DNA from: Demequina phytophila
Lineage (GTDB): Bacteria; Actinomycetota; Actinomycetes; Actinomycetales; Demequinaceae
Direction: 5' to 3'
DNA: 64,000 nucleotides
Assembly (NCBI RefSeq): GCF_000971135.1
Contig: NZ_BBLW01000002.1
Coordinates: 248,001 to 312,000, forward strand
Shown: piece after piece, positions 2,991 to 63,029 of the stretch
How the letters are laid out: the number at the start of each line of letters is the position of its first letter
Numbering within the stretch: the first letter of the stretch is position 1
Made by a program: the position numbers and the translations under genes
Notes under the pieces: model-generated
Told to the model about the DNA's origin: nothing
Database searches by the model: none
The model's input: only the letters and a program-made list of their open reading frames with translations

Positions 2991-5648
2991 TCAGACGGCG
3001 GGTGCGGGTGCGGCGACGGCTCCCCTCACGACCGTGGTGCCGGGGTCCAGGGGGGTGACGCCGCCATCGGGCATGACCACGGTGCCGTGACCCGCCGCAG
3101 GGGCGTCGACGGTCACCTCGAGCGCGCCGTCGACGATGCGCCATTCGACCGAGATGCGACCGCGCGGGGTGTCGTGATGACCGCGCGCCCACTCGAGTCC
3201 GTCGAGCGGCACGGGCGCGACCACGTAGCGTTCCCAGCCCGCCGAACCCGGCTCCTGTCGCAGCCCGAGCACGTGCGTGTGGAAGAAGCGCACGACCGCG
3301 CCCTTGCTGTAGTGGTTGAGCGACTCGTGGGGCACGCCGTCGCGGTCGATGCCGTCCCAGTCCTCCCAGATCGTGGTGGCGCCGCGGTCGACCATGTTGA
3401 GCCATGACGGCTCGGTGCGCTGGTAGAGCAGCGTGCGGGCAACGTCCGCGTGCCCGGCGTCGGCGAGGACGGGCAGCAGGCGCCCCGTCGCGAGAAAGCC
3501 CGTGGTGAGGTGATCGTCGGCGGCGTGGATCAGCTCGACGAGACGGTCGGCGGCCGCGTCCATGTGCTCGTCGGGGATCAGCCCGAAAGAGAGGGCGCGG
3601 ACGTAGCCGGCTTGCGTGTCCCCGACGGTGCGCCCATCCGCGGCGAGGAACTCGGTGCGCCAGGCCGTGAGGACCTTGCCGGCAAGGTCCTCGTAGCGCC
3701 GCGCATCGTCGCCATGCCCCAGCACCGCGGCGATCCGCGCGAGCGTCGAAGTCGACAGGTAGAGGTAGGCGGTGCCCACCTCCCCCTTGTCTGCCATGAA
3801 CCACTGCATCGGGTTGTCCTGGATCGGGTTCGCACGGCTGCCGTCGTCGTTGCGGGGCATGGGCTCGGTCCACTCGCCCCAGTGGAACGAGCCGTCCCAC
3901 AGGTACTGCTCGTGAGGCGCGGCCTCGGGGGAGCGCTGCATGCGCGAATGGTGGCGTGCGGTGCTGGCGTTGCCGAGCGCCCACTCCACCCAGCCGACCA
4001 TCGCGTCCCAGTTCTCTGCCAGCACGGTCGCGTCGCCGTAGGCCTCGTACATCTCCCAAGGCACCAGCACGACGGCGTCGCCCCAACCCGCGGAGCCGGT
4101 CATCATCGCGAACTGGTCGTCGAGCTTGGCCTTGATGCGACGCCCGTCGGGGGAGAAGTTCGCGATCCGCCCGTCCGGAAGCTGGTCGTCGCGCACGGCG
4201 CGCAGCCATTTGCGCGTGAAGCCTGCGACGTCGTAGAGGCGCGTTGCGGTGGGAGCGAACACCTGGTAGTCGCCGGTCCACGCGAGACGCTCGCGCGTCG
4301 GGCAGTCGGTCGGCACGTCCACGGCGTTGCCGCGGAAACTCCAGTCGGCGATCTCGTGGAGGCGGTTGAGGTCCGCGTCGCTGCATTCGAACGCGCCGGT
4401 GCGCGAGAGGTCGGTCTGGACCACGCGCATCGTCACCGTCGACGGGTCGAGCGGTCCACCGGTGCGGTGGACGCGCGCGTACTGGAAGCCGTGCACGGTG
4501 TGCCGAGGCTCGAAACGGCCACCCGAGCCGTCGGACACCGCCGTGTCCCGCTGCATGAAGCTTCGCGTCGGTTCGCCGGGGCGGTGCGAGTCGAGGTGCG
4601 ACATCAGCAGGTCGCCGCCCGGTGCCGCGAACTCGCCGTAGTCGATCCGGGTGACCGCGCCCGCGGGGCCGAGGTCGGCGAGCGCCACCCAACCCGAGGC
4701 GTTCTGCCCGAAGTCGAGGACCCAGGTCTCGTCGTCGATCCGCGTGGCGTGCTCGGCCGCGCGCGTCTCCACCACTCGCACCGGCGGCGCGGGCGACCAG
4801 GCGATCGGCGGCGCCGCGACGGCACCGACGCGCACGGGCGCGGCGACCTCGGCGGTGCGCGTCAGGTCCGTGCGCTGGCCGTCCATGAGATCGGCGGCGA
4901 TGATCGGGGACGATGCGCAGGTCCAGTCCGCGCCGGTCGCCACCACCTGCGTGGAGCCGTCTGCGAGCTCGAGGTGGAGCTCTGCGCGCACGCCGGGGGT
5001 ATCGCCCCACTCCGCGGGGATCCGGAAGGCGCCGACCTGGCCGAGATACCAGCCGGCCGACAGCGTGATCGTGATGGTGTTGCCGCCCTGGACCACGGCA
5101 TCGGTGACGTCATAGGCCTGGGCGTAGAGCGTGAGGTCGTAGGACGAGGTTCCCGGCGCGAGCTCCGTGGTGCCCACGCGTGCGCCGTTGATCGACGCCT
5201 CGTACACGCCGAGCGCGGTCGCGTAGAGGCGTGCTCGGGTCACGGGCGTCGCGACGTCCAACGTCGCGCGGAAGACGTGGGCCGGCAGAGCCCCGCGAGG
5301 CGAGTCCGCGGTCAACGGCGAGGCGATCCAGTCGGCGCTCCAGTCGTGGTCGAGCAGGCCTGACTCGAAGGTGTGCCACTCGCTCCAGTCCTCGGTTCCG
5401 GCGGGGCGCACGCGCCACTCGACCGCACGTCGGCTCGCGAGCGGCGGCCACGGCCACGCGACGGCGAGGACTTCGCCGGCGACGTCCTGAGGGGCGAGCG
5501 CGATGCCGTCGATGCGCGCCTCGAGCACGTAGCCCTCGGTCGCGGGCTCGAGCGACGCGGGGCGCCACGACAGGCGTGGTGCGGCGGAGGTCACCGGGAA
5601 CGCGTCGCCTCCCGCGTCGACCTGCAGGTGCGTCGGTGCGAGGGTCAT
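2991..5648 (-). CDS. Alpha-L-rhamnosidase, GH78
   Basis: An 885-residue GH78 enzyme that cleaves terminal alpha-L-rhamnose. The N-terminal third consists of beta-sandwich domains (Bac_rhamnosid_N-like; residues about 1-320). The (alpha/alpha)6 barrel follows and carries the family hallmark DCPTRERLAWTGD around residue 445, with further conserved acidic residues downstream; a C-terminal beta domain closes the chain. No signal peptide is seen, so the enzyme is probably cytoplasmic and acts on oligosaccharides after import. The MFS gene upstream is a candidate importer. The start ATG at 5648 gives the expected N-terminus (MTLAPTHLQVD). Its promoter carries a LacI-type operator over the -35 box, predicting induction by a rhamnose-containing sugar. 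Confidence 0.93.
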   Translation of the reverse strand: MTLAPTHLQVDAGGDAFPVTSAAPRLSWRPASLEPATEGYVLEARIDGIALAPQDVAGEVLAVAWPWPPLASRRAVEWRVRPAGTEDWSEWHTFESGLLDHDWSADWIASPLTADSPRGALPAHVFRATLDVATPVTRARLYATALGVYEASINGARVGTTELAPGTSSYDLTLYAQAYDVTDAVVQGGNTITITLSAGWYLGQVGAFRIPAEWGDTPGVRAELHLELADGSTQVVATGADWTCASSPIIAADLMDGQRTDLTRTAEVAAPVRVGAVAAPPIAWSPAPPVRVVETRAAEHATRIDDETWVLDFGQNASGWVALADLGPAGAVTRIDYGEFAAPGGDLLMSHLDSHRPGEPTRSFMQRDTAVSDGSGGRFEPRHTVHGFQYARVHRTGGPLDPSTVTMRVVQTDLSRTGAFECSDADLNRLHEIADWSFRGNAVDVPTDCPTRERLAWTGDYQVFAPTATRLYDVAGFTRKWLRAVRDDQLPDGRIANFSPDGRRIKAKLDDQFAMMTGSAGWGDAVVLVPWEMYEAYGDATVLAENWDAMVGWVEWALGNASTARHHSRMQRSPEAAPHEQYLWDGSFHWGEWTEPMPRNDDGSRANPIQDNPMQWFMADKGEVGTAYLYLSTSTLARIAAVLGHGDDARRYEDLAGKVLTAWRTEFLAADGRTVGDTQAGYVRALSFGLIPDEHMDAAADRLVELIHAADDHLTTGFLATGRLLPVLADAGHADVARTLLYQRTEPSWLNMVDRGATTIWEDWDGIDRDGVPHESLNHYSKGAVVRFFHTHVLGLRQEPGSAGWERYVVAPVPLDGLEWARGHHDTPRGRISVEWRIVDGALEVTVDAPAAGHGTVVMPDGGVTPLDPGTTVVRGAVAAPAPAV

Positions 5649-5680
5649 CGTGCTGCCTTTCGTCGTGGGGACGAGGATGC

Positions 5681-5720
5681 GGGGGCGGTGGGGGCGGTGG
5701 GGGCGCCGGGGGCGGTGGGG
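5681..5720 (+). repeat. Four 9-bp G-rich tandem repeats in the rhamnosidase leader
   Basis: The unit GGGGGCGGT is repeated three times with one GGGGGCGCC variant, ending in GGGG. It has several G-runs of four or more on the + strand, so a G-quadruplex is possible. It sits between the predicted rhamnosidase transcription start (about 5743) and its start codon (5648), so the mRNA would carry the C-rich complement. Confidence 0.85.
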
Positions 5721-5749
5721 TGCACGCGTCGCGTGCTGGGGATCACGCC

Positions 5750-8848: not shown

Positions 8849-9529
8849 ATGGGCAAGGTCGTCATGTACGCCTCGGTCTCCGTCGACGGCTTCATCGCCG
8901 ACGACGCCGACGACACAGGTCCGCTGTTCGACTGGCTCCTCAGCGGCGACGTCCCGCTGGACGATGGCGGCATCCTCAAGGTCTCGCAGGCGTCCTACGA
9001 CTACACGCGCGCGTACTGGGACGCGATCGGGGTCACCGTGGTCGGCCGCCACGTCTTCGACATGACGGGCGGCTGGGACGGGGTCCCCCCGAGCGGTGTC
9101 GCGCACGTCGTGGTCGTCACCCACCGGCCGCCGCCGGACGGGTGGAGGGACGATGCGCCGTTCACCTTCGTCGACGACGTTGCGCCAGCGGTGGCGACGG
9201 CTCAGCAGCTGGCCGGCGACCGCATCGTCGAGGTCTCGGCCGGCGACGTCGGCGGACAGGTGTTCGCCGCCGGACTGGTCGACGAGGTCCGGATGGACGT
9301 GGTGCCCGTGGTGTTCGGCTCCGGAAAGCGGGTCTTCGGCGCGGTCGACGCGCAACAGCTGCTCGAGGGCCCCGTCGACGTGATCCGGGGCGACCGGGTT
9401 GTGCACATGAGGTACGTGGTGCGAAGGCAGGATCCGAAGCGCCAGGCGGCGGCCGTTGCCGCGGAAGACAAGGTCTCCGACGACCAGGAGTTCATCGAGT
9501 CGATCGCGGTGCCGTGGGAGAATGCCTGA
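8849..9529 (+). CDS. Dihydrofolate reductase / RibD C-terminal-like protein
   Basis: A 226-residue member of the DHFR/RibD_C fold. It opens with [15 protein letters not shown], the classic start of this family, and has VVGRHVFD and a later FGSGKRVFG segment near residue 155. Members reduce pteridine- or deazaflavin-related substrates with NAD(P)H, but many actinobacterial copies are uncharacterised. The last 35 residues ([13 protein letters not shown]...) are a charged tail. A ribosome site (GGGGAG) precedes the ATG. It follows the broken hemerythrin gene closely and may be cotranscribed with it. Confidence 0.8.
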
Positions 9530-9848
9530 CACGTCGACATCGTCACTGAACCCGCGCATCGTCCCGGCCCTGGGCGTCCCAGCGCCGATGCCGTACACTC
9601 GTGGGAGCGAGCAGCCGCTCGCGTGCTCGTCGAGCCCGGCGGACCCGGGTTCCGAGCCTCGTCAGCGCCCAGGCGTGTATATCTCCGCCAGGACCGCGCA
9701 TCGGCCCCGCCGCCCGACCAGGGCGCGAACCGCATCGTGGCCCACCACAATCGTCCGTCGGCATCCGCCGCCGGTCACCCACGCACGTCGGCGCCGCCGG
9801 CGCAGCAACACCGACCGCCTCGCGGTCAGCAATACGAAGGACAGCAAT
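9530..9848 (+). promoter_or_regulatory. Long upstream region and likely 5' leader of the cold-shock gene
   Basis: A 319-bp stretch without a supported gene. A TACACT box at 9594-9599 could be a -10, though its -35 is weak; it would give a leader of about 240 nt. Long structured leaders are typical of cspA mRNAs and act as temperature sensors in known cases. A small inverted repeat (GCGAG...CTCGC) lies near 9606-9621, and an AAGGA ribosome site is 7 nt before the start. The 9-mer GCATCGTCC lies at 9556. Confidence 0.45.
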
Positions 9849-12767: not shown

Positions 12768-13993
12768 CGCGTCACCTCCGACGCGCCCTCGACCGGCACC
12801 GGCACGCCGCCCGTCTTGAGGTCGAGGAACTCGAGCGCGCCCAGCTCCCCCGCGAGCGCGCGCCGCACCGCACCTTCCAGTGACGACTCGAGGATGGGCC
12901 GCCCGCCCAGCCCCGCGACCACCGAGTGGATCCGCGACCGCGTGCCGGCGAGCGCACGTCCCACCGAGCCGGTGAGCGCGCCGCCCGCGCCGAGCTCGAG
13001 CGCGCGGTCCACCACGATCACGTGCCGCGACCCGCCAAGAGCCTCGCGCAACGCCGCCTCGGGGAACGGCCGGAACGAGGTCACCCCCACCAGCCGCACC
13101 GGCACGCCCTCCGCGCGCAGCGGCGCGAGCGCCGCCTGCAACGTCCCGAGCACGGACCCCATCGCGACCACGGTGAGGTCGGTGGACGATGCGGGGGGCG
13201 CCTGGGCGTCCCGGTCCAGCGTGTCGGGGGAGTAGCGGGCGATCAGCCCTCCCGCTTCGCGCCCGAACGCCGCTCGGAAGCGGTCCGACCACGCCGCGAT
13301 GACGTCGGCGGCATCGAGGAACCGCAGGTGCTGGAGGTACCGGGTCTCCGTGAAGGACTCGGGGCCGGCCATGGTGCCGATGGTGGTGGGGCGGTCGATG
13401 TCGAGCACCTGCTGCGGGTGGTACGGCGGCAGGAACGCGTCGATCTGGTCGGCGGTCGCGAGCTCGACCACGTCGGAGGCGTGGGTGAGCACGAACCCGT
13501 CCATGCAGACCATGGCGGGGATCCCCAGCTCCTCGGCGGCGGCGAACGCGATGACGTGGAGGTCGGCGGCCTCCTGGTTGTCGGCGGCGAAGAGCTGGAG
13601 CCAGCCGGCGTCGCGCATCGCCATGGCGTCGGAGTGGTCGTTCCAGATGTTGATGGGGGCGCCCACGGCGCGGTTGGCGACGGTCATGACGATCGGCAGC
13701 CCCATGCCGGCCGCGTTGTAGACGGCCTCGGCCATGTAGAGCAGCCCCTGGGAGGCGGTCGCCGTGTAGGCGCGGGACCCCGCGGCGCACGCGCCGATCG
13801 CGACCGACATCGCGGAGAACTCCGACTCGACGTTGACGTACTCGCAGTCCGCGAGCTCGCCGGTGCGCGCCATCCCCGCCAGCGCCTCGACGATGTGGGT
13901 CTGCGGGGAGATGGGGTACGCGCACACCACCCCGGGGCGGCAGCGCGCCACCGTCCGTGCCACGGCCTGCGAGCCCTCGAGCACCTCACGCAT
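12764..13993 (-). CDS. 2-oxoacid:ferredoxin oxidoreductase alpha subunit
   Basis: A 409-residue PorA-type subunit. The YPISPQTHIVEAL motif near 27 and VESEFSAMSVAIGA near 55 are hallmarks of the pyrimidine-binding domain of pyruvate/2-oxoacid:ferredoxin oxidoreductases. A transketolase C-like domain begins near 260 (VVAMGSVLGT). The longer open frame upstream is not used: ATG 13993 gives the family N-terminus and overlaps the gamma gene stop by 8 bp. It forms the alpha-beta-gamma core with its neighbours. Confidence 0.9.
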   Translation of the reverse strand: MREVLEGSQAVARTVARCRPGVVCAYPISPQTHIVEALAGMARTGELADCEYVNVESEFSAMSVAIGACAAGSRAYTATASQGLLYMAEAVYNAAGMGLPIVMTVANRAVGAPINIWNDHSDAMAMRDAGWLQLFAADNQEAADLHVIAFAAAEELGIPAMVCMDGFVLTHASDVVELATADQIDAFLPPYHPQQVLDIDRPTTIGTMAGPESFTETRYLQHLRFLDAADVIAAWSDRFRAAFGREAGGLIARYSPDTLDRDAQAPPASSTDLTVVAMGSVLGTLQAALAPLRAEGVPVRLVGVTSFRPFPEAALREALGGSRHVIVVDRALELGAGGALTGSVGRALAGTRSRIHSVVAGLGGRPILESSLEGAVRRALAGELGALEFLDLKTGGVPVPVEGASEVTR

Positions 13994-14570
13994 GGTCCGC
14001 CCCCTCCCGGGCGACCGTGGTACGGATGTGGGTGAACGCATCGTCCGCCGCGTGCGCGTTCGCCTCACCCACCGGCCCCGGGAAGCGGTCCCGGAACACG
14101 GCCTTCACCGCCTCTAGCGTGATGTCGTCCGAGGCCGCCGCGTACGCCGCGAGCATCGCGGCGGCGGGCTTGGGGCGCCCCAGCCGCGCGAGCGCGATCC
14201 GCAGCGCCGGGACGGTGAGGACCGTCGCGTCGACGTCCTCGGCGCCGGCGGCCGCGCGCACGTCGACCGCGTCGGCCTCGGTGTTGACCACCACCAGCCC
14301 GCCCGGCACGAGGCCCGCGAACGGGTGCTCCGAGGCGAGCAGCGTGGGGTCCTGGACCAGCACCACGTCGGGGGCGAGCACGGGCTCACGGGTGCGCAGC
14401 GGCACGTCCGCGAAGCGGCAGTACGCCACCACGGGCGCACCCGTGCGCTCGGACCCGAATGACGGGATGGCCTGCGCCTCGTGGCCGGCGAGGAACCCCG
14501 CGCGGGCGAGCATCTCCGCGGCCGTGACGACCCCTTGGCCGCCACGCCCATGGATCCTCACCTGCCTCAT
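13986..14570 (-). CDS. 2-oxoacid:ferredoxin oxidoreductase gamma subunit
   Basis: A 194-residue PorC-type subunit, first gene of the operon. The signature IHGRGGQGVVTAAEMLA lies at residues 5-21 and SFGSERTGAPV near 40. ATG 14570 is chosen over the longer open frame because it places this motif at the normal N-terminal position. The four-gene order gamma-alpha-beta-FeS/flavoprotein, all overlapping, shows one transcript and fixed stoichiometry. Having this oxygen-sensitive enzyme as well as aceE implies both aerobic and oxygen-limited pyruvate metabolism. Confidence 0.9.
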   Translation of the reverse strand: MRQVRIHGRGGQGVVTAAEMLARAGFLAGHEAQAIPSFGSERTGAPVVAYCRFADVPLRTREPVLAPDVVLVQDPTLLASEHPFAGLVPGGLVVVNTEADAVDVRAAAGAEDVDATVLTVPALRIALARLGRPKPAAAMLAAYAAASDDITLEAVKAVFRDRFPGPVGEANAHAADDAFTHIRTTVAREGADHA

Positions 14571-14684: not shown

Positions 14685-16382
14685 TCAGACGCCCGCGGTC
14701 TCCCGGTCCGGCTCCGGTTCCGCGGGTGGGCCGGCCTGCTGCGCCTCCGCGCGGCGCGCAGCCTCGGGGATGAAGCGGAACACGGCCCACGCGGTCAGCG
14801 CGATCACGCCGAACCCGCCGACGATCAGCAGCCATGTGAGGAGCGGGGTCTGCGACTCCTGCCAGTCGTCCCCGGTGGGCACCGCGATGATGACGAACGC
14901 GGCGGCCGCCACGAAGTAGGCCGCACCCCAGACGCGGCGGTTCCAGTCGTGGATCGCCTTGCCGTCCAGGTAGGTGAACGGCAGCAGGCCCACCACGAGC
15001 GCCGCCAGGGTCTCGAGCACGACTCCGGCGAGGGTCTCCTCGAGGAGGATCACCGCGGTGCCGGGCTCGCCGGTGAAGAAGGCCTCGAGCACGCTGAGGA
15101 GGAGCCACGAGACCAGGCCCAGCGTGAACGCCGAGGCCACGCCAACCAGCGCCAGCCTGCCCTCGTTGCGTGAGGAGAGGGAGCGGCCGTACTGCACGGT
15201 GACGACGGCGCCGAAGAGCAGCGCCGGCTCGATGTGGAGCACCTCGGAGATCACCACGGACACCGCGACCACGACCAGCGCGCCCGGCATGGGCATGATC
15301 CGCCCGGGGGTGCGCAGCCTGCGGCGGGCGGCGATGAGGCGTCCGGCGTTGAGGCCCAGGTTGAGCGCCGTGAGCGACAGGAACAGGCTGACGAAGGTGA
15401 TCGCGGCCTCGGCGCCCAGGTGCCACCCGGTCTGGCCGAAGCCGAGGATGAGCGTCGCGACCGCCACGGTGATCCCGCTGAGGAGCCACGGCTTGCGGAG
15501 CGCACGCGGCAGGAGATGCCAGCGGGTGCGGCGCCTCCGGCGTGCCGTCCAGCCGAACGCACGCCCGTAGTTCTCGGTGAGGGTGGACTGCAGGAGCTCC
15601 GCGGGGATCGCGGCGAGCAGCAGGAACGCCGAGGCGAGGGTCGCCGTGGCCGCGACCTTGAGCGGCGTGAAGTGCAGGTCCGCGAGGGTCGGCACGGTGG
15701 GCGAGAGCCACTGGTACCCCGCCTCGAGGGTGACGCCGGCGGAGGCCGTCGACGGGGCGTAGCCGTCGACGGTGAGGGTCGCGACCACCTCGTGGTCGCC
15801 GGGCTCGGTGGCGTCCGGGATGGTGACGGTCATCGCGAGGCTGCCATCGTCGGCGACCGTGCCCGCGCCCATCTCCCGCGGGGTCGAGTGGAGCTCGACG
15901 TCGATCCGGGCGCCGGGCGGCAGTCCGTCCGCGGCGATGCGGATCCGGTCGCCGGGCCTGAGGGTGCGGCCGTCCAGCCCGAGCCCGTCCTCGCCGGCGA
16001 GGTCGAAGTGCCACACGAGCGTGGCGTCCGCGGGCGTCGAGACTGCCACGGGCGCCGCCGCGACCGGAGCGTCGGGCGTGGGCTTGCGCTTCCTGTGCTT
16101 CTCAGGGGCGTCGACCGCCGCCGCGGGCGTCCACCACGTGGTCGGTGCCCACGCGTCGGTTTCCGGCGCATCGGGATCCGGCTGGGGCGGCGTCGGTTCC
16201 GGTGCGGGCGGTCGGGGCGACGGGGCAGGGTAGCCGTGCCGGGCATCGTCCCGGCCCGTGTCCGCGCTCGCCGCGCCGGCGCCCACGGCCACGGCCCCGA
16301 CCGCGCACAGCGCGGCGACGACGAGCGCGGCGGCGCGCCGCATCACGGTGCGTCGAGACCGCGCCCCCGCAGGACCGTTCAT
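14685..16382 (-). CDS. Secreted-N-terminus, polytopic membrane protein (FGLLP-motif type)
   Basis: A 565-residue protein. Residues 1-41 form a signal peptide ending near ASA-DT. Then comes a Pro-rich stretch (about 45-100) and an Ig-like or adhesion-like extracellular domain (about 118-225). The second half has around eight membrane helices, with ARRRRRTR and similar positive loops on the cytoplasmic side and the GLLPFTYLDGK motif near 465 that defines FGLLP-motif membrane proteins. Function is unknown in the family. A Glu/Pro-rich tail ends the chain. It stands alone between the oxidoreductase operon and divergent gntK. Confidence 0.75.
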   Translation of the reverse strand: MNGPAGARSRRTVMRRAAALVVAALCAVGAVAVGAGAASADTGRDDARHGYPAPSPRPPAPEPTPPQPDPDAPETDAWAPTTWWTPAAAVDAPEKHRKRKPTPDAPVAAAPVAVSTPADATLVWHFDLAGEDGLGLDGRTLRPGDRIRIAADGLPPGARIDVELHSTPREMGAGTVADDGSLAMTVTIPDATEPGDHEVVATLTVDGYAPSTASAGVTLEAGYQWLSPTVPTLADLHFTPLKVAATATLASAFLLLAAIPAELLQSTLTENYGRAFGWTARRRRRTRWHLLPRALRKPWLLSGITVAVATLILGFGQTGWHLGAEAAITFVSLFLSLTALNLGLNAGRLIAARRRLRTPGRIMPMPGALVVVAVSVVISEVLHIEPALLFGAVVTVQYGRSLSSRNEGRLALVGVASAFTLGLVSWLLLSVLEAFFTGEPGTAVILLEETLAGVVLETLAALVVGLLPFTYLDGKAIHDWNRRVWGAAYFVAAAAFVIIAVPTGDDWQESQTPLLTWLLIVGGFGVIALTAWAVFRFIPEAARRAEAQQAGPPAEPEPDRETAGV

Positions 16383-20515: not shown

Positions 20516-20516
20516 C

Positions 20517-22485: not shown

Positions 22486-22522
22486 CACGAGCCTTCGCGA
22501 CGGCTCGCGCCGGGACGATGCC

Positions 22523-44982: not shown

Positions 44983-45065
44983 GTCCCCACCCGCTCTCCC
45001 GAGCATCGTCCCCAGGCGGGAGGCTAGAGAAGTCCCCAGCAACCCCCTCAAGGAGACCTCAATTG

Positions 45066-51795: not shown

Positions 51796-54231
51796 ATGAC
51801 GGTCGACGGCGACAGGATGCTGACGCGTAGCGCGATGACGCTCGCGGAGAAGGCGTCCCTCATGTCGGGCGCGAACTTCTGGAACACCAAGTCCGTCGAG
51901 CGCCTCGGCGTTCCGGGGATCATGCTGACCGACGGACCCCACGGCCTGCGCAAGCAGGGCGGCGCCGCAGACCACCTGGGCCTCAACGCCTCGCTCCCCG
52001 CCACCTGCTTCCCGCCCGCGGCGACACTGGCGAACAGCTGGGAGCCCGCGCTCCTCGAGCGCGTGGGCGAGGCGCTGGGCGCCGAGGCCGCCGCGGAGCG
52101 CGTGAGCGTCCTGCTGGGACCCGGCCTCAACATCAAGCGCAACCCGCTCGCGGGTCGCAACTTCGAGTACTTCTCCGAGGACCCGCTCCTGTCCGGCACG
52201 CTCGCGGGCGCGCTCGTGCGCGGCATCCAGACCCGCGACGTCGCCGCGTGCCTCAAGCACTACGCGGTCAACAGCCAGGAGACGCACCGCATGACCATCG
52301 ACGAGGTGGTCGACCGGCGCTCCCTCCACGAGCTCTACCTCGAGGGCTTCCGCATCGCCGTCCGCGATGGGCGTCCCTGGTCCGTCATGACCTCGTACAA
52401 CAAGGTCAACGGCACCTACGCGAACGAGCACGGCGAGCTCGCCGCGATCCTGCGCGACCGCTTCGGATTCGACGGCCTCGTGGTCACCGACTGGGGCGGC
52501 AACAACGACCGCGTCGCGGGCCTGATCGCCGGCAACGCCCTCGAGATGCCGTCCGCGGACGGCGTGACCGACGCCGAGATCGTGACCGCGGTGCGGGACG
52601 GCATTCTCGACGAGGCCGTCCTCGACGCACGGGTCGACGAGGTCCTGGCGCTCGTCGAGCGCACCTCCGGCGCGCGGGGGGACGATGCGGCGGTCGCCGA
52701 CCACGCGGCCCACCACGAGCTCGCGGTCGAGGCCGCGCGCCGATCGTTGGTCCTGCTGCGCAACGAAGGCGACGCGCTGCCGCTCGGGCCCGACGCGGGC
52801 CGCGTCGCCGTGATCGGCGACTTCGCCGCCACCCCGCGGTACCAGGGCGCCGGCAGCTCGCTCGTCAACCCCACCCGCATCGACGCGCCGCTCGACGCGC
52901 TCCGCGCCACCGGTCTCGACATCGTCGGCTACGAGCCCGGCTTCGCGCGCCGCGACAAGGCGTCGACCCGCCTGCGGGACCGGGCGCTGGCGCTCGCCAC
53001 GCGCGCCGACACGATCCTCCTGTTCCTGGGCCTCGACGAGTCCGCCGAGGCCGAGGGCGTCGACCGCGCCCACATGCGGCTCGCCGCGAACCAGCTCGAC
53101 CTGGTACGCGCGATCACCCGGCTGGGCAGGCGCGTGGTGGTGGTGCTCGCGGGCGGCGCGCCGGTCGAGCTCCCGTTCGCCGAGAACGTCGACGCGATCC
53201 TCCACGGCTACCTCGCCGGCCAGGGCGGCGGCCGGGCCATCGCGGACGTCCTCACCGGCGCGGTGAACCCCTCCGGCCGCCTCGCCGAGACCTACCCGCT
53301 GCGCTACGAGGACGTGTCCTCGCACTCCTCGTTCGGGCGCACCGAGGCCAGCTCGGAGCACCGCGAGGGCATCTACCTGGGGTACCGCTACTTCGACAAG
53401 GTCGGCGCGCCCGTGCGCTACCCGTTCGGCCACGGACTCGGCTACACCGCCTTCGAGATGACCGGCCTGGTCGCGGGCCCCGGATCCGCGCGCGTCACCG
53501 TGACGAACGTGGGCCACCGCGACGGCAGCGAGACCCTGCAGCTCTACGCGGAGGCGCCGGAAGGCGCCGAGGGCGAGTTCCGCGCACCCCGCGAGCTCGT
53601 CGGCTTCGCCAAGATCCACCTCGCGCCGGGGGAGAGCGCCACCGTCGAGATCCCCTACGCCGAGCACGCGTTCCACGTCTTCGATGCCGCCGCGGACGCG
53701 TGGCGCGCCGTCGGCGGCGCGTACGCGATCCTGGCCGGAGCATCGTCCCGCGACATCCGGGCCCGCGCGGAACTGGTGGTCGCGGGTGACCCCTGGACCA
53801 CGCCGGACGCCGCGCGGCTGCCGCACTACGTGTCGGGTCACGTCGAGGACGTCGACGCGGCCGAGTTCGAGGCCCTGCTCGGGCGGCCCCTTCCGCCGGC
53901 GACGTGGGACCGCGACCGCCCGCTCACGCGCGCCGACATCATCGCGCAGTGCCGGGGCAGGGGCGGCTTCGGCGGCCTCCTGTACTGGACCGTCGACACG
54001 GCCGGCACCGTGCTCATGGCGCTCGGCAAGCCGCTCGCGGCCAACAACACGAAGTTTGTGCTCGACCTGCCGTTCCGGTCGGTCGCGCGCATGAGCGGCG
54101 GAAGGGTCGACGAGCCGATGCTCGACGGCCTGCTGCTCATGGTCAATCGTCGCTTCTGGAGCGGGCTCGCCCGCGTCGGAGGCGCCTGGCGCGCTCGGCG
54201 AAGGAGCGAGCGCGCGTCACGCAAGGATTGA
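51796..54231 (+). CDS. GH3 beta-glucosidase-like enzyme
   Basis: An 811-residue GH3 enzyme in the normal domain order: TIM barrel first (GVPGIMLTDGPHGLRK near 40), nucleophile D232 in VVTDWGG, then the alpha/beta sandwich (RRSLVLLRNEGDALPLG near 317), and a fibronectin-III-like domain near residue 600. No signal peptide is seen. The last 35 residues are Arg-rich. GH3 includes beta-glucosidases and beta-xylosidases; specificity is unassigned. It is first of the operon under the divergent TetR and ends 7 bp before the next gene. Confidence 0.92.
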   Translation: MTVDGDRMLTRSAMTLAEKASLMSGANFWNTKSVERLGVPGIMLTDGPHGLRKQGGAADHLGLNASLPATCFPPAATLANSWEPALLERVGEALGAEAAAERVSVLLGPGLNIKRNPLAGRNFEYFSEDPLLSGTLAGALVRGIQTRDVAACLKHYAVNSQETHRMTIDEVVDRRSLHELYLEGFRIAVRDGRPWSVMTSYNKVNGTYANEHGELAAILRDRFGFDGLVVTDWGGNNDRVAGLIAGNALEMPSADGVTDAEIVTAVRDGILDEAVLDARVDEVLALVERTSGARGDDAAVADHAAHHELAVEAARRSLVLLRNEGDALPLGPDAGRVAVIGDFAATPRYQGAGSSLVNPTRIDAPLDALRATGLDIVGYEPGFARRDKASTRLRDRALALATRADTILLFLGLDESAEAEGVDRAHMRLAANQLDLVRAITRLGRRVVVVLAGGAPVELPFAENVDAILHGYLAGQGGGRAIADVLTGAVNPSGRLAETYPLRYEDVSSHSSFGRTEASSEHREGIYLGYRYFDKVGAPVRYPFGHGLGYTAFEMTGLVAGPGSARVTVTNVGHRDGSETLQLYAEAPEGAEGEFRAPRELVGFAKIHLAPGESATVEIPYAEHAFHVFDAAADAWRAVGGAYAILAGASSRDIRARAELVVAGDPWTTPDAARLPHYVSGHVEDVDAAEFEALLGRPLPPATWDRDRPLTRADIIAQCRGRGGFGGLLYWTVDTAGTVLMALGKPLAANNTKFVLDLPFRSVARMSGGRVDEPMLDGLLLMVNRRFWSGLARVGGAWRARRRSERASRKD

Positions 54232-54238: not shown

Positions 54239-56986
54239 ATGGCTACCCGCAAAGAGATCAAGCAGGAGGCCGTCGCGCGCGTCAGGGACGAGCGCGCGGC
54301 CAGCCAGGCGCGCCGCGACGAGCTGAAGGCGATGACGCCCGACGAGCGCACCGCCGCCAAGGCCGCCGACAGGACGGCCGCGAAGGAGGCGAAGGCGACC
54401 GCGAAGGAGGAGCGCGCGGAGGTGCGTTCCACCATGAGCCGTGCCCAGCGCCGCGAGCTCAAGCGCCGCGAGCGCGTGTACCGCAAGGTCAGCCACCGCC
54501 GTCGCCGCGCGATCGGGTGGGGCGTCACCGGCGTCGCCGTCATCGGCATCGGTGCCCTCGCTGCTCCGTATGTCGGAGGAATTGCGCGCGTCGCGTCGCT
54601 CAGCTTCACCGACGACACCCCCCAGGCGGCCGCCGCGCGCGAGGCCGCGCTCGGCGTCTCCGAGTCCATCTCGGACGAGGGCATGGTGCTGCTGAAGAAC
54701 GAGGGCGGCGCGCTGCCGCTGACCGGCGGCGTCAACGTGTTCTCGTTCTCCTCGTTCAACCTGCGGCTGGGCGGCGGCGGCTCCGGAGGCTCCAACACCG
54801 CGGGCGCTCCCACGCTCTACGAGGCGCTCGAGGCCCAGGGCGTCGAGTACAACACCGACCTCTACGCGACCATGGAGGACGCGGGCGCCGCTCACTCCGA
54901 GAGCTCGAGCAACGCGTTCGTGCAGATCGCCGGGGCGCTCACGGGCGCCGGAGGCGAGCACGAGCCCGCCCCCGACTACCTCACGGATGACGTCCTCGCT
55001 CAGGCGCAGACCTTCTCCGACACCGCGATCGTGGTGGTGGGCAACGACGGCGTCGAGGGCTCCGACATGACGCATGCCGACCTCCAGCTCACCGACGCGC
55101 AGCGCGAGCTGCTCGACAAGGTCACGGCGGTCCAGGACCACGTGATCGTGGTGGTGAACTCGGGCAACCAGATGGAGCTCGGCTTCCTCGACGAGTACCC
55201 CGAGATCACCGCCGCCGTGTGGATGGGCACCCCCGGACCCCAGGGTGCGACCTCGCTCGCGAAGGTGCTCACCGGCGAGGTCAACCCGTCCGGGCGTCTC
55301 ACCGACACCTACGCGTACGACATCGCGTCCGCGCCCGCCGTCGAGAACTTCGGCGACTACAACTACACCAACGTCAAGCGCGGCTTCCTCGACTACGAGG
55401 AGGGCATCTACGTCGGATACCGCTACTACGAGACCCGCTACGAGGGTGACGAGGCGGGCTACGAGGAGACGGTGCAGTTCCCGTTCGGATACGGCCTCAG
55501 CTACACGTCCTTCGACTGGGCCGCAGCCGAGCCCGTGATGACCGACGCGACCGTGTCCGTCGACGTGACCGTCACCAACGGGGGTGACGTCGCGGGCAAG
55601 GACGTGGTCCAGGTCTACTTCTCCGCGCCCTACACCGGCGACATCGAGAAGTCCTCGATCGAGCTCGCGGGCTACGCCAAGACCTCGCTCCTCGAGCCCG
55701 GTGCGTCCGAGACGGTGACCGTCGAGTTCGCGGTCCAGGACATGGCCTCCTGGGACACCGCCGCGGGCGGCGCGTACGTGCTCGAGGCCGGTGACTACGA
55801 GATCTCAGCGCGCTCCGACGTCCACTCGCCCGTCGCATCGTCCACCGTGACCGTCGCGAACGACGTCACGTTCGACGCGGACGCGGACACCGGCGTCGCC
55901 TACGAGAACCGCTTCGACTATGTCGAGGGTGACCTCACCTACCTGTCCCGCGCGGACTGGGACGGCACCTACCCGGCCGCACCCGACGGCAGCGAGCAGG
56001 CGTCCGACCAGGTGCTCGCCCTCATGGACCCGACGTACGAGCCTGCCCAGGGCGACGCGCCCACGTACGGCGCCGACAACGGTCTGATGCTGTCCGACAT
56101 GGTGGGCCTCGAGCACGACGACCCGCAATGGGACGCGTTCCTCGACCAGCTCACGCTCGACGAGCAGGTGGACCTGTTCTCCTACGGCGCGTACCAGTCG
56201 GTCGCGGTCGAGCGCCTGGGCGTCCCGTCGATCACCATGCTCGACAGCCCCGCGGGCCTCAACTCGCTGTTCTCGCCGCTCGACTCCGCGGCCTACCCGA
56301 CCGAGGTGGTCATCGCCTCGACGTGGAACGACGAGCTCGCGTACGCGTGGGGCGAGTCCGTGGGCAACGAGGCGAAGGCCTACGGCGTCGAGGTCTGGTA
56401 CGCCCCCGGCATGAACCTTCACCGCACCGCGCTGGGCGGTCGCGACTTCGAGTACTTCTCCGAGGACCCGCTCCTGACGGGCAAGATGGCCGCGGCCGTG
56501 GTGTCGGGCTCGCAGGACCAGGGCGTGCCCACCACCATCAAGCACTTCGTGCTCAACGACCAGGAGGTCAACGCGCGCACGGGCATCAACGTGTTCGCGT
56601 CCGAGCAGGCGCTGCGCGAGCTGTACCTGCAGCCCTTCGAGATCGCGGTCAAGGAGGCCGATGCGGCGGGCGCCATGAGCTCCTTCATCAACCTCGGCGG
56701 CAGCTGGGCCGGCGGCAACGAGGATCTCCTCGAGGAGGTGCTGCGCGGCGAGTGGGGCTTCGAGGGCTTCGTGTCCACCGACGCCGTGCTCGGCGGCTGG
56801 ATGGCTCCCGAGCTCGCCGCCCGCGGCGGCAACGACTGGATGCTCGCGGTGTTCCCGTCCGCGACCGTGAAGTCCACCAAGGCCGCGGTCGACGCGGACC
56901 CGGTGGGCATGGGTGAGGCGCTGCGCGAGCGCGTGCACAACATCCTGTTCACCGTCGCCGGCTCGAACGCGATGGACGCGTCCTAG
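54239..56986 (+). CDS. Membrane-anchored GH3 with permuted domain order
   Basis: A 915-residue protein. A basic, Ala/Lys-rich cytoplasmic coil (about 1-85) leads to one membrane segment (about 97-117). The GH3 alpha/beta sandwich comes first (SDEGMVLLKNEGGALPL near 145), then the fibronectin-like domain (about 440-540), and the TIM barrel last, with EYFSEDPLL near 740 and nucleophile D848 in VSTDAVLGG. This is the reverse of the usual order and of the neighbouring gene. Permuted GH3 enzymes are known in Ruminococcus and Butyrivibrio. Anchoring outside suggests it trims oligosaccharides at the surface. Confidence 0.88.
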   Translation: MATRKEIKQEAVARVRDERAASQARRDELKAMTPDERTAAKAADRTAAKEAKATAKEERAEVRSTMSRAQRRELKRRERVYRKVSHRRRRAIGWGVTGVAVIGIGALAAPYVGGIARVASLSFTDDTPQAAAAREAALGVSESISDEGMVLLKNEGGALPLTGGVNVFSFSSFNLRLGGGGSGGSNTAGAPTLYEALEAQGVEYNTDLYATMEDAGAAHSESSSNAFVQIAGALTGAGGEHEPAPDYLTDDVLAQAQTFSDTAIVVVGNDGVEGSDMTHADLQLTDAQRELLDKVTAVQDHVIVVVNSGNQMELGFLDEYPEITAAVWMGTPGPQGATSLAKVLTGEVNPSGRLTDTYAYDIASAPAVENFGDYNYTNVKRGFLDYEEGIYVGYRYYETRYEGDEAGYEETVQFPFGYGLSYTSFDWAAAEPVMTDATVSVDVTVTNGGDVAGKDVVQVYFSAPYTGDIEKSSIELAGYAKTSLLEPGASETVTVEFAVQDMASWDTAAGGAYVLEAGDYEISARSDVHSPVASSTVTVANDVTFDADADTGVAYENRFDYVEGDLTYLSRADWDGTYPAAPDGSEQASDQVLALMDPTYEPAQGDAPTYGADNGLMLSDMVGLEHDDPQWDAFLDQLTLDEQVDLFSYGAYQSVAVERLGVPSITMLDSPAGLNSLFSPLDSAAYPTEVVIASTWNDELAYAWGESVGNEAKAYGVEVWYAPGMNLHRTALGGRDFEYFSEDPLLTGKMAAAVVSGSQDQGVPTTIKHFVLNDQEVNARTGINVFASEQALRELYLQPFEIAVKEADAAGAMSSFINLGGSWAGGNEDLLEEVLRGEWGFEGFVSTDAVLGGWMAPELAARGGNDWMLAVFPSATVKSTKAAVDADPVGMGEALRERVHNILFTVAGSNAMDAS

Positions 56987-57114: not shown

Positions 57115-58134
57115 ATGACCACGCTTGAGGCGCCGTCCAGTCCCGTCACTCCCGCGCCACGCCGCTGGCGCCGCCGTCTCGCGATCACCGGAGGCGTGCT
57201 GGGCGGGCTGGTGGTCGCGGCCGGGGCCGTCGGCTGGTACTTCGCCTACGCCCCCGCACCCGCGGAGCCGGAGCTCGATGCCACGGTCGAGCAGCGCTCG
57301 CTCACCGTCGACGGGATGGAGCGCACCTACACCGCGGTGGTGCCGTCGTCTCTCGCGGACGATGCGCCGCTGTGGGTCGCGCTGCACGGCTCACGGATGG
57401 ACGGCGCCGGCATGCGTGCCGCGGCCGGCTACCAGCTCGATGAACTCGCCGTCGAGCAGGGCTTCGTGGTGATCTATCCCGACGGCTACGAGGACACGTG
57501 GCACGACTGCCGGCCCGACACCGGCTACCCCGCGACCGCCGAGGGCATCGATGACGTCGCGTTCCTCGAGGCGCTCGTCTCCGAGGCGGCGAGCGCGTAC
57601 TCGCTCGACGCGTCGCGCGTGTACGGCGTGGGCTACTCCAACGGCTCCCACATGCTCTTCCGCATGGCCGCGGAGTCGCCCGGCACCCTCGCAGGCATCG
57701 AAGCGAACGCGGCGAACCTCCCCACCTCGGACAACTGGTCCTGCGAGGCCTGGACCGAGCCGATCCCGACCATCCTGGTCGAGGGCACGGGCGACCCGAT
57801 CAACCCGTTCGACGGCGGCCAGGCCGGTGCCTTCGGGCAGGACCTCGGCGCGGTGATGTCGGCCGCGGAGTCCGCGGCGGCGATCGCGACCATCAACGGT
57901 GTCGCGGGCGAGCCCGCCGAGTCCGTGGTCGGGGGCGAGCCGGGCGAGGCCGGCGCAGTCACGCTGACCGCCTACGGCGCCGGATCCGAGGCCCCGGTGC
58001 TGCTCTACACCGTCGCAGGCGGAGGCCACGGCGTGCCGAACCCCGCGACCCGCCTGCCGCGCATGATGGGCGGCACCACCGACGAGCTCAACGCGCCGGT
58101 GGAGGCGTGGGAGCTGTTCTCGAGCCTCGGCTGA
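57115..58134 (+). CDS. CE1/PHB-depolymerase-like esterase, membrane-anchored
   Basis: A 339-residue alpha/beta hydrolase. A membrane segment at about 22-43 anchors or exports it. LWVALHGSRMDG near 82 is the oxyanion region, the nucleophile is S175 in GYSNGSHM, and GGGHGVPN near 303 holds the catalytic His. The family includes feruloyl and acetyl-xylan esterases and LpqC. Next to GH3 and sulfatase genes, a role in removing ester groups from a polysaccharide is likely. ATG 57115 is preceded by GAAAGG. Confidence 0.85.
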   Translation: MTTLEAPSSPVTPAPRRWRRRLAITGGVLGGLVVAAGAVGWYFAYAPAPAEPELDATVEQRSLTVDGMERTYTAVVPSSLADDAPLWVALHGSRMDGAGMRAAAGYQLDELAVEQGFVVIYPDGYEDTWHDCRPDTGYPATAEGIDDVAFLEALVSEAASAYSLDASRVYGVGYSNGSHMLFRMAAESPGTLAGIEANAANLPTSDNWSCEAWTEPIPTILVEGTGDPINPFDGGQAGAFGQDLGAVMSAAESAAAIATINGVAGEPAESVVGGEPGEAGAVTLTAYGAGSEAPVLLYTVAGGGHGVPNPATRLPRMMGGTTDELNAPVEAWELFSSLG

Positions 58135-59758: not shown

Positions 59759-59798
59759 ACGATGCGGCCGTCCACGGCGACGTGGGCGGCCGCATCGT
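59759..59798 (+). terminator. Two-tier hairpin between sulfatase and maturase
   Basis: ACGATGCGGCCG pairs with CGGCCGCATCGT (12 bp), with an inner CCACG/CGTGG stem. Its outer arms contain the ACGATGC core of the window's 9-mer on both strands. It may attenuate transcription into the maturase gene so that less maturase than sulfatase is made. Confidence 0.7.
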
Positions 59799-59828: not shown

Positions 59829-61109
59829 ATGACCACGAGCCCTCACGAGCCCACCCCGCGCCCCACCGTGGTCGCGGTGCCGGGCCTCGACCCCGTGACG
59901 GCCGGGGGAAGGCGGCGCCTCCCGTTCACCGTGCTCGCCAAGCCCACCGGGGCGGCCTGCAACCTCGACTGCACGTACTGCTTCTTCCTGTCGAAGGAGC
60001 TGCTGTACGACGGCGACGGCCAGCGCATGTCAGAGGCGGGACTCGACGCGTACCTAGCCAACCTGCTGCGCTCTCAGCCCGACGGCGACGTCGAGATCGC
60101 GTGGCAGGGCGGCGAACCGACGATGCGAGGCATCCCGTTCTTCCGGCGTGCGGTCGAGCTCGCGGAGCAACTGCGCCGGCCGAAGCAGACCGTCCGTCAC
60201 ACGTTGCAGACCAACGGCACGCTGCTGGACGATGCGTGGGGCGAGTTCCTCGCGACGAACGGCTTCCTCATCGGCCTGAGCATGGACGGCCCCGCGCACC
60301 TCCACGACGCGTATCGGGTCAACAAGGCCGGGCGTGCGACGCACGCGCAGGTCCTCCGGGGGCTTGACGTGCTGAAGCGCCACGGGGTCGAGTTCAACAT
60401 CCTGTGCACCGTGCACGCGGTCAACCAGGATCACGGTCTCGAGGTGTACCGGTACTTCCGTGACGAGCTCGGGGCGCGTCACCTGCAGTTCATCCCGATC
60501 GTCGAGCGCGTCACCCGCGAGCAGCTGCCCATCGCCGAGCAGGGCTGGAAGGACGGCAACGGGACGCGGATCCTCTACCGCCAGGAGGGTGACGCCGTCA
60601 CCTCGCGCAGTGTGGATCCCGCGGCGTGGGGCGAGTTCCTGGTGGCGGTGTTCGACGAGTGGGCGGCCAACGATATCGGCGAGGTATTCGTGCAGCACTT
60701 CGACGTGATGCTCGGCAACGCGCTCGGCCAGTACTCGATGTGTGTGCATGCCCCCGAGTGCGGCTCCGCGCTCGCGGTCGAGCACACGGGCGACGTGTAC
60801 TCGTGCGACCACTTCGTGGAGCCCGGTTATCTCCTGGGGAACGTGGGGGAGCGGTCGCTCCAGACGATGCTGCAGTCGCCTGCGCAGCGGGAGTTCGGGG
60901 CGGCGAAGCGGACGTCGTTGCCACGGCAATGCGTGGAGTGCCCCGTGCGATGGGCATGCCACGGCGGGTGCCCGAAGGACCGGTTCGACGTCTCGAGGGA
61001 TGGCGAGCCCGGGCTCAACCACCTGTGCGCCGGCTACTACCGCGCGTTCTCGCACGCCGAGCCGACCATCCGACGCATGGCCGAGCTGGTCGCGCCGACG
61101 CTGGGCTGA
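59829..61109 (+). CDS. Radical SAM anaerobic sulfatase maturase (anSME-like)
   Basis: A 426-residue radical SAM/SPASM enzyme. C44-x3-C48-x2-C51 (CNLDCTYC) binds the SAM cluster; QGGEPTMRG follows near 95, and the C-terminal SPASM Cys (CVHAPECGSALAVEHTGDVYSCD near 305; CVECPVRWACHGGCPKD near 368) bind two auxiliary clusters. It oxidises the active-site Cys of sulfatases to formylglycine without O2. The preceding sulfatase is its obvious substrate. Its oxygen-independent chemistry fits the ferredoxin enzymes elsewhere in the window. Confidence 0.92.
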   Translation: MTTSPHEPTPRPTVVAVPGLDPVTAGGRRRLPFTVLAKPTGAACNLDCTYCFFLSKELLYDGDGQRMSEAGLDAYLANLLRSQPDGDVEIAWQGGEPTMRGIPFFRRAVELAEQLRRPKQTVRHTLQTNGTLLDDAWGEFLATNGFLIGLSMDGPAHLHDAYRVNKAGRATHAQVLRGLDVLKRHGVEFNILCTVHAVNQDHGLEVYRYFRDELGARHLQFIPIVERVTREQLPIAEQGWKDGNGTRILYRQEGDAVTSRSVDPAAWGEFLVAVFDEWAANDIGEVFVQHFDVMLGNALGQYSMCVHAPECGSALAVEHTGDVYSCDHFVEPGYLLGNVGERSLQTMLQSPAQREFGAAKRTSLPRQCVECPVRWACHGGCPKDRFDVSRDGEPGLNHLCAGYYRAFSHAEPTIRRMAELVAPTLG

Positions 61110-61128: not shown

Positions 61129-61962
61129 TCAGACTTCCTGCGAGAACCCGACCCGCCGCTCGCTCTCCGCCCAGAGCGCGTCGGCGAGCGCCGCATCGTC
61201 CATCTGTGGGTGACGCTTGCGAGGGAGGGCCCGGCGTTCGGTGTAGGTCTCGCCGGAGCGCGCCGCCGTGCTCTCCATCGCCCAGGTGAGGTTCGCGGCG
61301 CCGTCCTCCGGGGTCTTCAGGAACAGCGCGAGCGGACCCTTGTAGAAGAGCTTCATCGACGTGGTGCCGGTGTCCTTCGCGAAGTTCGACGCGACGTCGC
61401 CCGGGTAGATCGCGACCGCGCGCACGCCGTCGCCGCCGAAGCGTCCGTGCAGCGACCGGGCGAACAGCATGGTCGCGAACTTCGCGTTCCCGTAGGCCGT
61501 GGTCGGCTTGTACGAACGTGCCGAGTCGAGGTCCATCAGGTCGAGGCGGCCGTACTTGTCCGCCGCGGCGCTCGCGGTGTTCACCACGGTCCCGCGCGCG
61601 GCGACCACCAGGTCGAGCAGCAGGTTCGTGAGGAGGAAGCCGGCGAGGTGGTTCACCTGCAGGGTGCGCTCGTTGCCGTCGACGGTCACGGCCCGCTGCG
61701 CGAAGATCCCGCCGGCGTTGTTGGCGAGCACGTCGAGACGGTCGGTCCGCTCGCGCACCCAGCCCGCCAGCGCGCGTACGTCGTCCAGGCGCGCGAAGTC
61801 CGCGGGGCAGGCTTCGCCGCCCGTCGACGCTGCGACCGCCGCGAGCTTGGCGGGGGAGCGGCCGGTGAGGAGCACGCGGTCGCCGCGCTCCGCGAGGGCC
61901 CGCGCCGTCGCCGCCCCGATCCCGTCGGATGCGCCGGTGACGAGGATGGTGCGCTGCGTCAA
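61129..61962 (-). CDS. Short-chain dehydrogenase/reductase
   Basis: A 277-residue SDR with TGASDGIGAA near 9, NNAGG near 85 and a catalytic YKPTTAYGNAK stretch near 153; the GNAK replaces the more common SAK. NADP preference is suggested by the GRSP motif after strand 2. The substrate is unknown. It is convergent with the maturase gene and 45 bp after an aldo/keto reductase gene on the same strand. Confidence 0.85.
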   Translation of the reverse strand: MTQRTILVTGASDGIGAATARALAERGDRVLLTGRSPAKLAAVAASTGGEACPADFARLDDVRALAGWVRERTDRLDVLANNAGGIFAQRAVTVDGNERTLQVNHLAGFLLTNLLLDLVVAARGTVVNTASAAADKYGRLDLMDLDSARSYKPTTAYGNAKFATMLFARSLHGRFGGDGVRAVAIYPGDVASNFAKDTGTTSMKLFYKGPLALFLKTPEDGAANLTWAMESTAARSGETYTERRALPRKRHPQMDDAALADALWAESERRVGFSQEV

Positions 61963-62007
61963 GGTCTCCTCCAGAGGTGCGCGTGAATCGTACCGAGGAG
62001 GAGCGCC

Positions 62008-62979
62008 TCAGTAGCCGCGCGGCTCCCGCGCCTGGTACGGCGCCTCGAGCGCCTCGACCTCCGCCTCGGTGAGCTCGATGTCCAGCGCCGCGACGGCATC
62101 GGGAAGGTGATGCGGCTTGGTGGCGCCCACGATCGGCGCACTCACCACCGGGTTGCGCAGCACCCACGCGAGCGCGACCTGCGACATGGGGACCGCACGC
62201 TCAGCCGCGATCCGCTCGACCGCGTCCACCACGCCCTGGTCCGCGTCCATGAACGTCGCGTCCGCGACCGGGTCGTTCCCCGCGCGCGAGGTCTGCGTGC
62301 CCCACGGCCTCGCGACCCGGCCCTTCGCGAGCGGCGAGTAGGGGATCGCGCCCACGCCCTGGTGCGCGAGAAGGCCGAGCATCTCCCGCTCCTCCTCGCG
62401 ATACAGCAGCGAGTACTGGTCCTGCATCGACACGAACCGCGTCCACCCGCCCAGGTCCGCCGCGTGCTGCATGGTCGCGAACTGCCAAGCGTGCATCGCC
62501 GAGGCGCCGATGTACCTCGCCTTTCCCGCCGTCACCACGTCGTGGAGCGCCTCCATGGTCTCCTCGATGGGCGTCGTGGGGTCGAAGCGGTGGATCTGAT
62601 AGAGGTCCACGTAGTCGGTGCCCAGACGCGTGAGCGACGCGTCGATCTGCTCCATCACGGCCTTGCGGGACAGGCCCTGACCGCCGGGACCGTCGTGCAT
62701 CCGGAAGTGCAGCTTGGTCGCGAGCACTATCTCCTCGCGCGTGCTGAACTCGCGCAGCGCGCGCCCGGTGAGCTCCTCGCTCACGCCCTCCGAGTAGACG
62801 TTGGCGGTGTCCCAGAACGTGATGCCGAGCTCGACGGCCTGCCGGTAGAACGGCGCGGCCTCCTCCCACGCGAAGGCGCCCCACTGCGGCACCTGTGAGG
62901 TCGGGCTGCCGTAGGTCATGGTCCCCAGCGCGAGGCGAGGGATGCGGAGCCCGGAGGCTCCGAGGCGGGTGTACTTCAT
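62008..62979 (-). CDS. Aldo/keto reductase
   Basis: A 323-residue AKR. FWDTANVYSEG near 50 (catalytic Asp and Tyr), a Lys near 80 (ATKLHFRM) and HRFDPTTP near 130 give the catalytic tetrad region. The KYTRLGASGLRIPRLALGTMTYGS start fixes ATG 62979. It resembles the YajO/IolS group acting on sugars and aldehydes. NADPH binding is suggested by the C-terminal IPxxG-like segment. Confidence 0.9.
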   Translation of the reverse strand: MKYTRLGASGLRIPRLALGTMTYGSPTSQVPQWGAFAWEEAAPFYRQAVELGITFWDTANVYSEGVSEELTGRALREFSTREEIVLATKLHFRMHDGPGGQGLSRKAVMEQIDASLTRLGTDYVDLYQIHRFDPTTPIEETMEALHDVVTAGKARYIGASAMHAWQFATMQHAADLGGWTRFVSMQDQYSLLYREEEREMLGLLAHQGVGAIPYSPLAKGRVARPWGTQTSRAGNDPVADATFMDADQGVVDAVERIAAERAVPMSQVALAWVLRNPVVSAPIVGATKPHHLPDAVAALDIELTEAEVEALEAPYQAREPRGY

Positions 62980-63029
62980 CTTCTGCTCCTTTGCGAGGGA
63001 CGATGCGGTGGCTGGGTGGGCGACGAGGC

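Follow-up and report, generated by a model that had tools for sequence, protein, structure and literature searches.

Across a 64,000-nucleotide stretch of the Demequina phytophila genome (contig NZ_BBLW01000002.1, positions 248,001 to 312,000; hereafter the window), a single nine-base word, GGACGATGC, recurs on both strands, within genes and between them. We found 31 exact copies, 17 on the plus and 14 on the minus strand, where 1.96 are expected (mean of 100 dinucleotide shuffles, the largest of which gave 7; a third-order Markov estimate is 1.99). By our own gene calls, 27 of these copies are intragenic and four intergenic. An earlier note, made from the letters of the window, had reported 30 copies (16 plus, 14 minus) against a hand-estimated expectation of about 0.8; the excess that it described is real, although its count was short and its expectation too low. 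The same note had described copies between genes, copies read as Asp-Asp-Ala (DDA), Ala-Ser-Ser (ASS), Arg-Ile-Val (RIV), Ala-His-Arg-Pro (AHRP) or Trp-Thr-Met (WTM), and two hairpins built from the motif or its core, all of which we recovered, the second hairpin consisting of near copies rather than the exact word. The positions are listed here (copies of GGACGATGC unless stated otherwise).

4908..4916, plus strand: inside a gene on the minus strand, read as ASS
9148..9156, plus strand: inside a gene, DDA
9556..9564, minus strand: intergenic
13184..13192, plus strand: inside a gene on the minus strand, ASS
14038..14046, minus strand: inside a gene, DDA
16243..16251, minus strand: inside a gene, DDA
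16753..16761, plus strand: inside a gene, DDA
19193..19201, plus strand: inside a gene on the minus strand, AHRP
19771..19779, minus strand: inside a gene, DDA
22513..22521, plus strand: intergenic
23697..23705, minus strand: inside a gene, DDA
24731..24739, minus strand: inside a gene, WTM
26646..26654, plus strand: inside a gene on the minus strand, RIV
26737..26745, plus strand: inside a gene on the minus strand, ASS
29720..29728, plus strand: inside a gene, DDA
30092..30117: head-to-head pair of exact copies (30092-30100 plus, 30109-30117 minus) with a 9-bp stem, inside a called gene, DDA and RIV
40624..40632, plus strand: inside a gene, DDA; ends a 10.5-kb gap free of copies
41899..41907, minus strand: inside a gene on the plus strand, ASS
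42931..42939, plus strand: inside a gene, DDA
43389..43397, minus strand: inside a gene on the plus strand, RIV
45003..45011, minus strand: intergenic
46854..46862, plus strand: inside a gene, DDA
48563..48571, minus strand: inside a gene, DDA
52680..52688, plus strand: inside a gene, DDA
53740..53748, minus strand: inside a gene on the plus strand, ASS
55835..55843, minus strand: inside a gene on the plus strand, ASS
57357..57365, plus strand: inside a gene, DDA
59759..59798: near copies in inverted orientation, AACGATGCG...CGCATCGTC, forming a long stem; located between two called genes and outside the 31
60227..60235, plus strand: inside a gene, DDA
61193..61201, minus strand: inside a gene, DDA
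62998..63006, plus strand: intergenic

The hairpin at 30092-30117 has an RNA folding energy of -19.1 kcal/mol (z -3.2) and that at 59759-59798 one of -42.9 kcal/mol (z -5.6).

The abundance of the word extends across the genome, which comprises 2,984,965 bases in 12 contigs. The earlier note had named a whole-genome count near expectation as grounds for abandoning its claim; we counted 1,538 copies (772 plus, 766 minus), or one per 1.94 kb, far above the 21 copies of a control made of the same letters reversed. Word statistics were computed on a sample of 462 kb (398 kb of stretches plus the window), in which GGACGATGC is the most over-represented 9-mer, with 241 copies against 21.7 expected under a fourth-order Markov model. 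Its edges are sharp, since most of the 27 words that differ from it by one mismatch occur about as often as expected or less often; among those with useful counts, AGACGATGC (14 against 5.7) and GGCCGATGC (35 against 19.2) rank highest. The word also has a longer form, AGGGACGATGCGnnGG, and the longer AGGGACGATGCG occurs 32 times against 0.21 expected. Spacing between copies is near random, with a mean of 1,869 bp, and about 0.9 gaps as long as the 10.5-kb gap in the window are expected in the sample, so that this gap is not unusual. Copies are scarcer in 4-kb bins of low GC content (Spearman 0.34, p 0.0002), even though the word itself has a lower GC content than the genome, a scarcity that would fit acquired DNA without the word. 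Within the window, positions 32001-40000 are GC-poor (0.66-0.68), hold no copy and include some genes without a Pfam match; this is possibly an acquired island. A second, weaker over-represented word was also seen in the sampled genome, with AGCGCCT at 266 copies against 123 expected and GAGCGCCT at 172 against 64.

One explanation for such an excess is that it follows from codon-pair or dipeptide bias, or that the word is part of a dispersed repeat. Half of the coding copies (81 of 162, in 419 sampled genes called with a simple gene caller of our own) do spell Asp-Asp-Ala. Shuffling synonymous codons, in a way that preserves each protein and the codons of each gene, leaves 21.6 +/- 4.0 copies (maximum 31 in 200 shuffles), and pooling codons while keeping the next base leaves 16.0, so that codon bias, for which the earlier note had proposed this very check, fails to explain the word. 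Furthermore, 81 of the 162 Asp-Asp-Ala tripeptides are spelled G-GAC-GAT-GC and 53 of 109 Ala-Ser-Ser tripeptides GCA-TCG-TCC, though 8.7% of Asp codons are GAT and 4.0% of Ala codons are GCA, in agreement with the earlier remark that the word forces rare codons. Coding counts also exceed those of synonymous shuffles in six further Demequina genomes (for example, 33 against 5.8 in G016 and 27 against 4.1 in G037), which rules out codon or dipeptide bias. The flanks of the copies are unrelated beyond about 16 bp, which likewise rules out a dispersed repeat. With enrichment stronger still outside genes, we give this family of explanations next to no credence. The synonymous shuffles and the intergenic enrichment bear out the earlier reading of selection on DNA rather than on protein.

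Outside genes, 78 of the 241 sampled copies lie in 8.8% of the sequence, a 3.7-fold enrichment, and density, 0.38 per kb in genes, is 1.59 in divergent, 1.88 in tandem and 3.46 in convergent intergenic regions. Copies also form close pairs, with eight arranged head to head (first plus, then minus) at 17-27 bp and three back to back within 60 bp. At least one pair, 27 bp apart (L009, 2940-3015), forms an unbroken 19-bp stem that includes the outer parts (-53.7 kcal/mol, z -8.2). Known uptake sequences, by which some bacteria recognise their own DNA for transformation, are likewise over-represented between genes, partly as inverted pairs. Around the nine bases we observed G at -1 and +9 and, past two looser bases, GG at +12/+13 followed by a pyrimidine and a C. 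The GG is present at 65% of copies and 71% of intergenic copies, compared with 8-37% for ten look-alike control words from this genome.

A non-palindromic word of about 9-12 bp with an outer element could be read by a DNA-binding protein, and the word might be a site for a nucleoid protein, a DNA methyltransferase or a regulator, selected throughout the genome. Near copies are not enriched, however, unlike the degenerate sites of regulators; the near-random spacing also speaks against such a role, and a modification motif alone does not explain enrichment. We therefore regard this explanation as unlikely. Similar doubt attaches to a Chi-like signal for an enzyme of the RecBCD, AddAB or AdnAB type, in which the word would stop degradation from DNA ends and be kept as protection of the chromosome. 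Like Chi sites, the word is short, dense and lineage-specific, and many copies are intragenic. Chi orientation is biased with replication, whereas copies of GGACGATGC show no strand preference within contigs (76 and 88 on the two strands over 304 kb of contig C11, 23 and 25 over 100 kb of contig C4), assuming that origin and terminus lie outside those stretches. This check, which the earlier note had proposed, disfavours the Chi-like alternative that it had listed, and neither the head-to-head pairs nor the intergenic enrichment would be expected of such a site.

To place the word among relatives, as the earlier note had advised, we searched 44 Demequina genomes and classed them by cut-offs applied in order (at least 900 copies of GGACGATGC; else at least 580 of GGCCGATGC; else at least 350 of CCGACGCTG). 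GGACGATGC is dense in 16 genomes (929-1,864 copies, against 49-275 in the other 28), one of which, G018, passes the first two cut-offs and is counted with GGACGATGC. In 18 others GGCCGATGC stands in its place (584-2,018 copies), and CCGACGCTG is clear in G037 (1,062) and weak in G034 (404) and G026 (363). Within 60-80 kb of each of nine genomes low in GGACGATGC, we identified GGCCGATGCG in G016, GGCCGATGCT in G005, GGGCCGATGCCG in G007 and GCCCGACGCTGTGG in G037, together with weaker forms in G003 and G034, hints in G026 and G012, and no word in G004. These variants, or dialects, have CGAYGC in common and differ in their flanks; the outer GG stands out in G005 and G007, is fainter in G016 and G037, and could not be seen in G034 or G003. 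On a tree of metE from 27 genomes (27 of 28 rows, the short one from G011 being left out), the dialect labels need four changes, compared with a mean of 11.8 when shuffled (0 of 200 as low), and GGACGATGC occupies a clade of ten and, separately, the pair G020/G028. We looked in metE, pilB, pilT and pilC for single sites converted from one dialect to another and found one clear case, too few for statistics: at metE column 1169, D. phytophila and G023 have GGACGATGC and ten others GGCCGATGC.

The genus also encodes machinery through which such a word could act. A T2SSE family protein is present in all 44 genomes, each time with a PilB-like best match (E 8e-95 or better), and ComEC in 43, the exception being G036 (85% complete); in a few others it is split or cut. 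D. phytophila has a type IV pilus cluster that includes pilB, pilT, pilC, pilins, pilD and pilM beside aroE, mltG, ruvX and alaS (names by our own reading), and two further genes are read as pilN and pilO by position. PilT and PilM score above NCBIfam cut-offs, while the best matches of PilB, PilC, ComEA and ComEC are as expected but fall below them; Pfam cut-offs are passed for T2SSE, for ComEC, and for the SLBB and HHH domains of ComEA. The comEA-comEC genes, of which the earlier note had suggested looking for comEC, lie at 164.9-168.0 kb of contig C11. The pilus cluster does not appear to set the dialect, an idea ruled out by the pilB tree (43 genomes), which needs 11 label changes against four on the metE tree. 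In G010 and G019 (loci L056 and L115), metE is 95% but PilB only 77% identical to that of D. phytophila. Because the two trees disagree and PilB identity is low in these genomes, the cluster seems to have been exchanged between Demequina species.

Encoded apart from the pilus cluster in D. phytophila is a lone type IV pilin of 137 residues, an arrangement like that of the small pilin ComP of the Neisseriaceae. A profile search found it in 30 of the 44 genomes (the G022 match, another pilin, did not enter the profile), and in 28 of 32 loci metE lies in the same stretch. Its structural model has a pilin fold. Foldseek returned no match at E 0.001 or better, VIA-align matched pilins in general, with ComP not among the 50 matches listed, and a sequence search of the PDB matched N-terminal pilin helices. 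Compared with named genomes, the C-terminal part of the pilin matched nine loci, all from Demequina (D. silvatica, D. soli, D. lignilytica, D. iriomotensis, D. activiva, D. flava, G043, G038 and the metagenome bin G035), the closest being D. silvatica (G023; pilin part 89%, PilB 99% identical). Nine of the 12 genomes with both GGACGATGC and the lone pilin have one pilin type, with exceptions on both sides. The pilin profile also brought up membrane-anchored proteins that are not pilins and whose C-terminal part resembles that of the pilin (W-C ... C), at L065:11114-11968 (G007), L196:2876-3415 (G006), L197:2439-2993 (G014) and L198:2134-2670 (G042); we take their anchor to resemble DUF4190.

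Taken together, the density of the word, its strand balance, its independence of codons, its intergenic enrichment and head-to-head pairs, its dialects with a kept core, and the genes for a pilus, ComEA and ComEC suggest that GGACGATGC is probably a self tag resembling DNA uptake sequences, in a monoderm actinobacterium. The likeness to the uptake sequences of Neisseria and Pasteurellaceae that the earlier note had drawn is thereby strengthened. The pilus would bind tag-bearing double-stranded DNA through a pilin, for which the lone 137-residue protein is a candidate receptor, the weakest step of the scheme; retraction of the pilus would deliver the DNA to ComEA and ComEC, and recombination of the DNA taken up would allow the uptake preference to spread and maintain the tag. 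Spread through uptake preference and recombination has been argued for Neisseria and Haemophilus. The word might instead spread by recombination itself, as a drive or hotspot, with no recognition at the cell surface. Dialects that follow descent and spacing that fits random would suit this, but it leaves unexplained why related words, with one core and the outer GG, recur in pilus-bearing genomes, and we judge it very improbable.

On balance, judging from genome comparison, we favour the view that Demequina has a sequence-specific self-recognition system for transformation, having dialects and a pilin receptor of its own, a system that would have originated independently of those of the Neisseriaceae and Pasteurellaceae. 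In G095, from family f20 of the same order, a related word, GGACGATGCCG, is present; GGACGATGCC has 22 copies in 146 kb, of which 15 lie in genes, where shuffles give 2.0, and seven outside them (11.7% of the sequence), and homologues of pilA, pilD and pilM lie within one 16-kb stretch. The presence of a related word and pilus genes in this family suggests that such a system would be older than the genus. In family f7 we also saw CGCCGAGG at 78 copies in 60 kb of G150 (L159-L161), 69 of them coding, compared with 25.7 after synonymous shuffling (2.7-fold), which is not counted as the same phenomenon.

Several observations weigh against an uptake tag. Seven of the 44 Demequina genomes have no assigned word, yet all seven encode a PilB-like ATPase and six ComEC; similarly, 120 kb of G192, a genome from a sister genus, held no dense word, although this genome has both a pilus cluster (PilB 75% identical) and ComEC. 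Word and candidate receptor match imperfectly: G010, G019 and G028 have GGACGATGC with another pilin allele, G006, G014 and G042 have it with no lone pilin of that strength, and G043 has a similar pilin without GGACGATGC. Only three of the eight head-to-head pairs lie near gene 3' ends, with three inside genes and two upstream only (terminators are thereby ruled out as the main role). Finally, in family f19 a GATGC-core word as dense as GGACGATGC, CGGATGCCG, reaches 800-3,084 copies in 16 of 22 sampled genomes and 175-677 in the remaining six; no sampled genome outside f19 has more than 495, a count from one of 9.4 Mb. In 400 kb of the f19 genome G079 (L156-L158, L174-L193) it has 215 copies (111/104), only nine of which are intergenic (6.2% of the sequence), with no enrichment. 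A tblastn search of these 400 kb, which cover the syntenic place (rpsD, alaS, ruvX, mltG and aroE together), gave no hit at E 1e-5 for any of six Demequina pilus proteins, and three f19 genomes yielded no pilin resembling the candidate at E 1e-8. Density and strand balance thus do not by themselves mark a word as an uptake tag, and the f19 word may be something else; being mostly intragenic, it would suit a Chi-like role better.

A 2019 review states that a role of type IV pili in competence had until then been found only in Gram-negatives (PMC6370729), and a 2025 paper describes two Gram-negative families as the only ones known to tag their own DNA for uptake (PMC12616744). Among the literature matches listed, which exclude preprints and most subscription papers, none describes an uptake word for Actinobacteria or any other Gram-positives. 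If our reading of GGACGATGC is correct, Demequina would provide an independent case, outside these two families, in which to study why bacteria tag their DNA and how tag and receptor change together, in a genus that has several words, pilus genes that were replaced and a candidate receptor, and it would add a transformation tag for a high-GC Gram-positive group.

Among such bacteria, the naturally transformable actinobacterium Micrococcus luteus resembles Demequina in possessing ComEA and ComEC, according to the same review (PMC6370729). It differs in transforming via Flp/Tad pili, as described in a paper (PMC4322843) from which the terms 'uptake sequence' and 'sequence-specific' are absent.

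With the uptake signal sequence (USS) of the Pasteurellaceae, for which ComN/PpdA is the predicted receptor, the Demequina word has in common a core of 9 bp and the existence of a longer form. Beyond its core the USS carries outer helical-turn segments, and the GG of the Demequina word similarly lies about one helical turn away. An extended USS of 17 positions is mentioned in an excerpt of PMC12616744. The two nevertheless differ in sequence and belong to different phyla. As for the Neisseriaceae, their uptake sequences have dialects, as the Demequina word does, with the core kept. The DNA uptake sequence of Neisseria also differs in sequence from the Demequina word, which is known here from genomes of a monoderm actinobacterium, and the Demequina pilin, as a candidate counterpart of ComP, matches dialect imperfectly and by its fold resembles pilins in general. 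The two systems are alike in their type IV pilus, in the small lone pilin that may serve as receptor, and in abundance, with about 1,500 copies in Demequina and about 1,900 copies of the 10-mer in N. meningitidis and N. gonorrhoeae, as given in an excerpt of PMC3630211.

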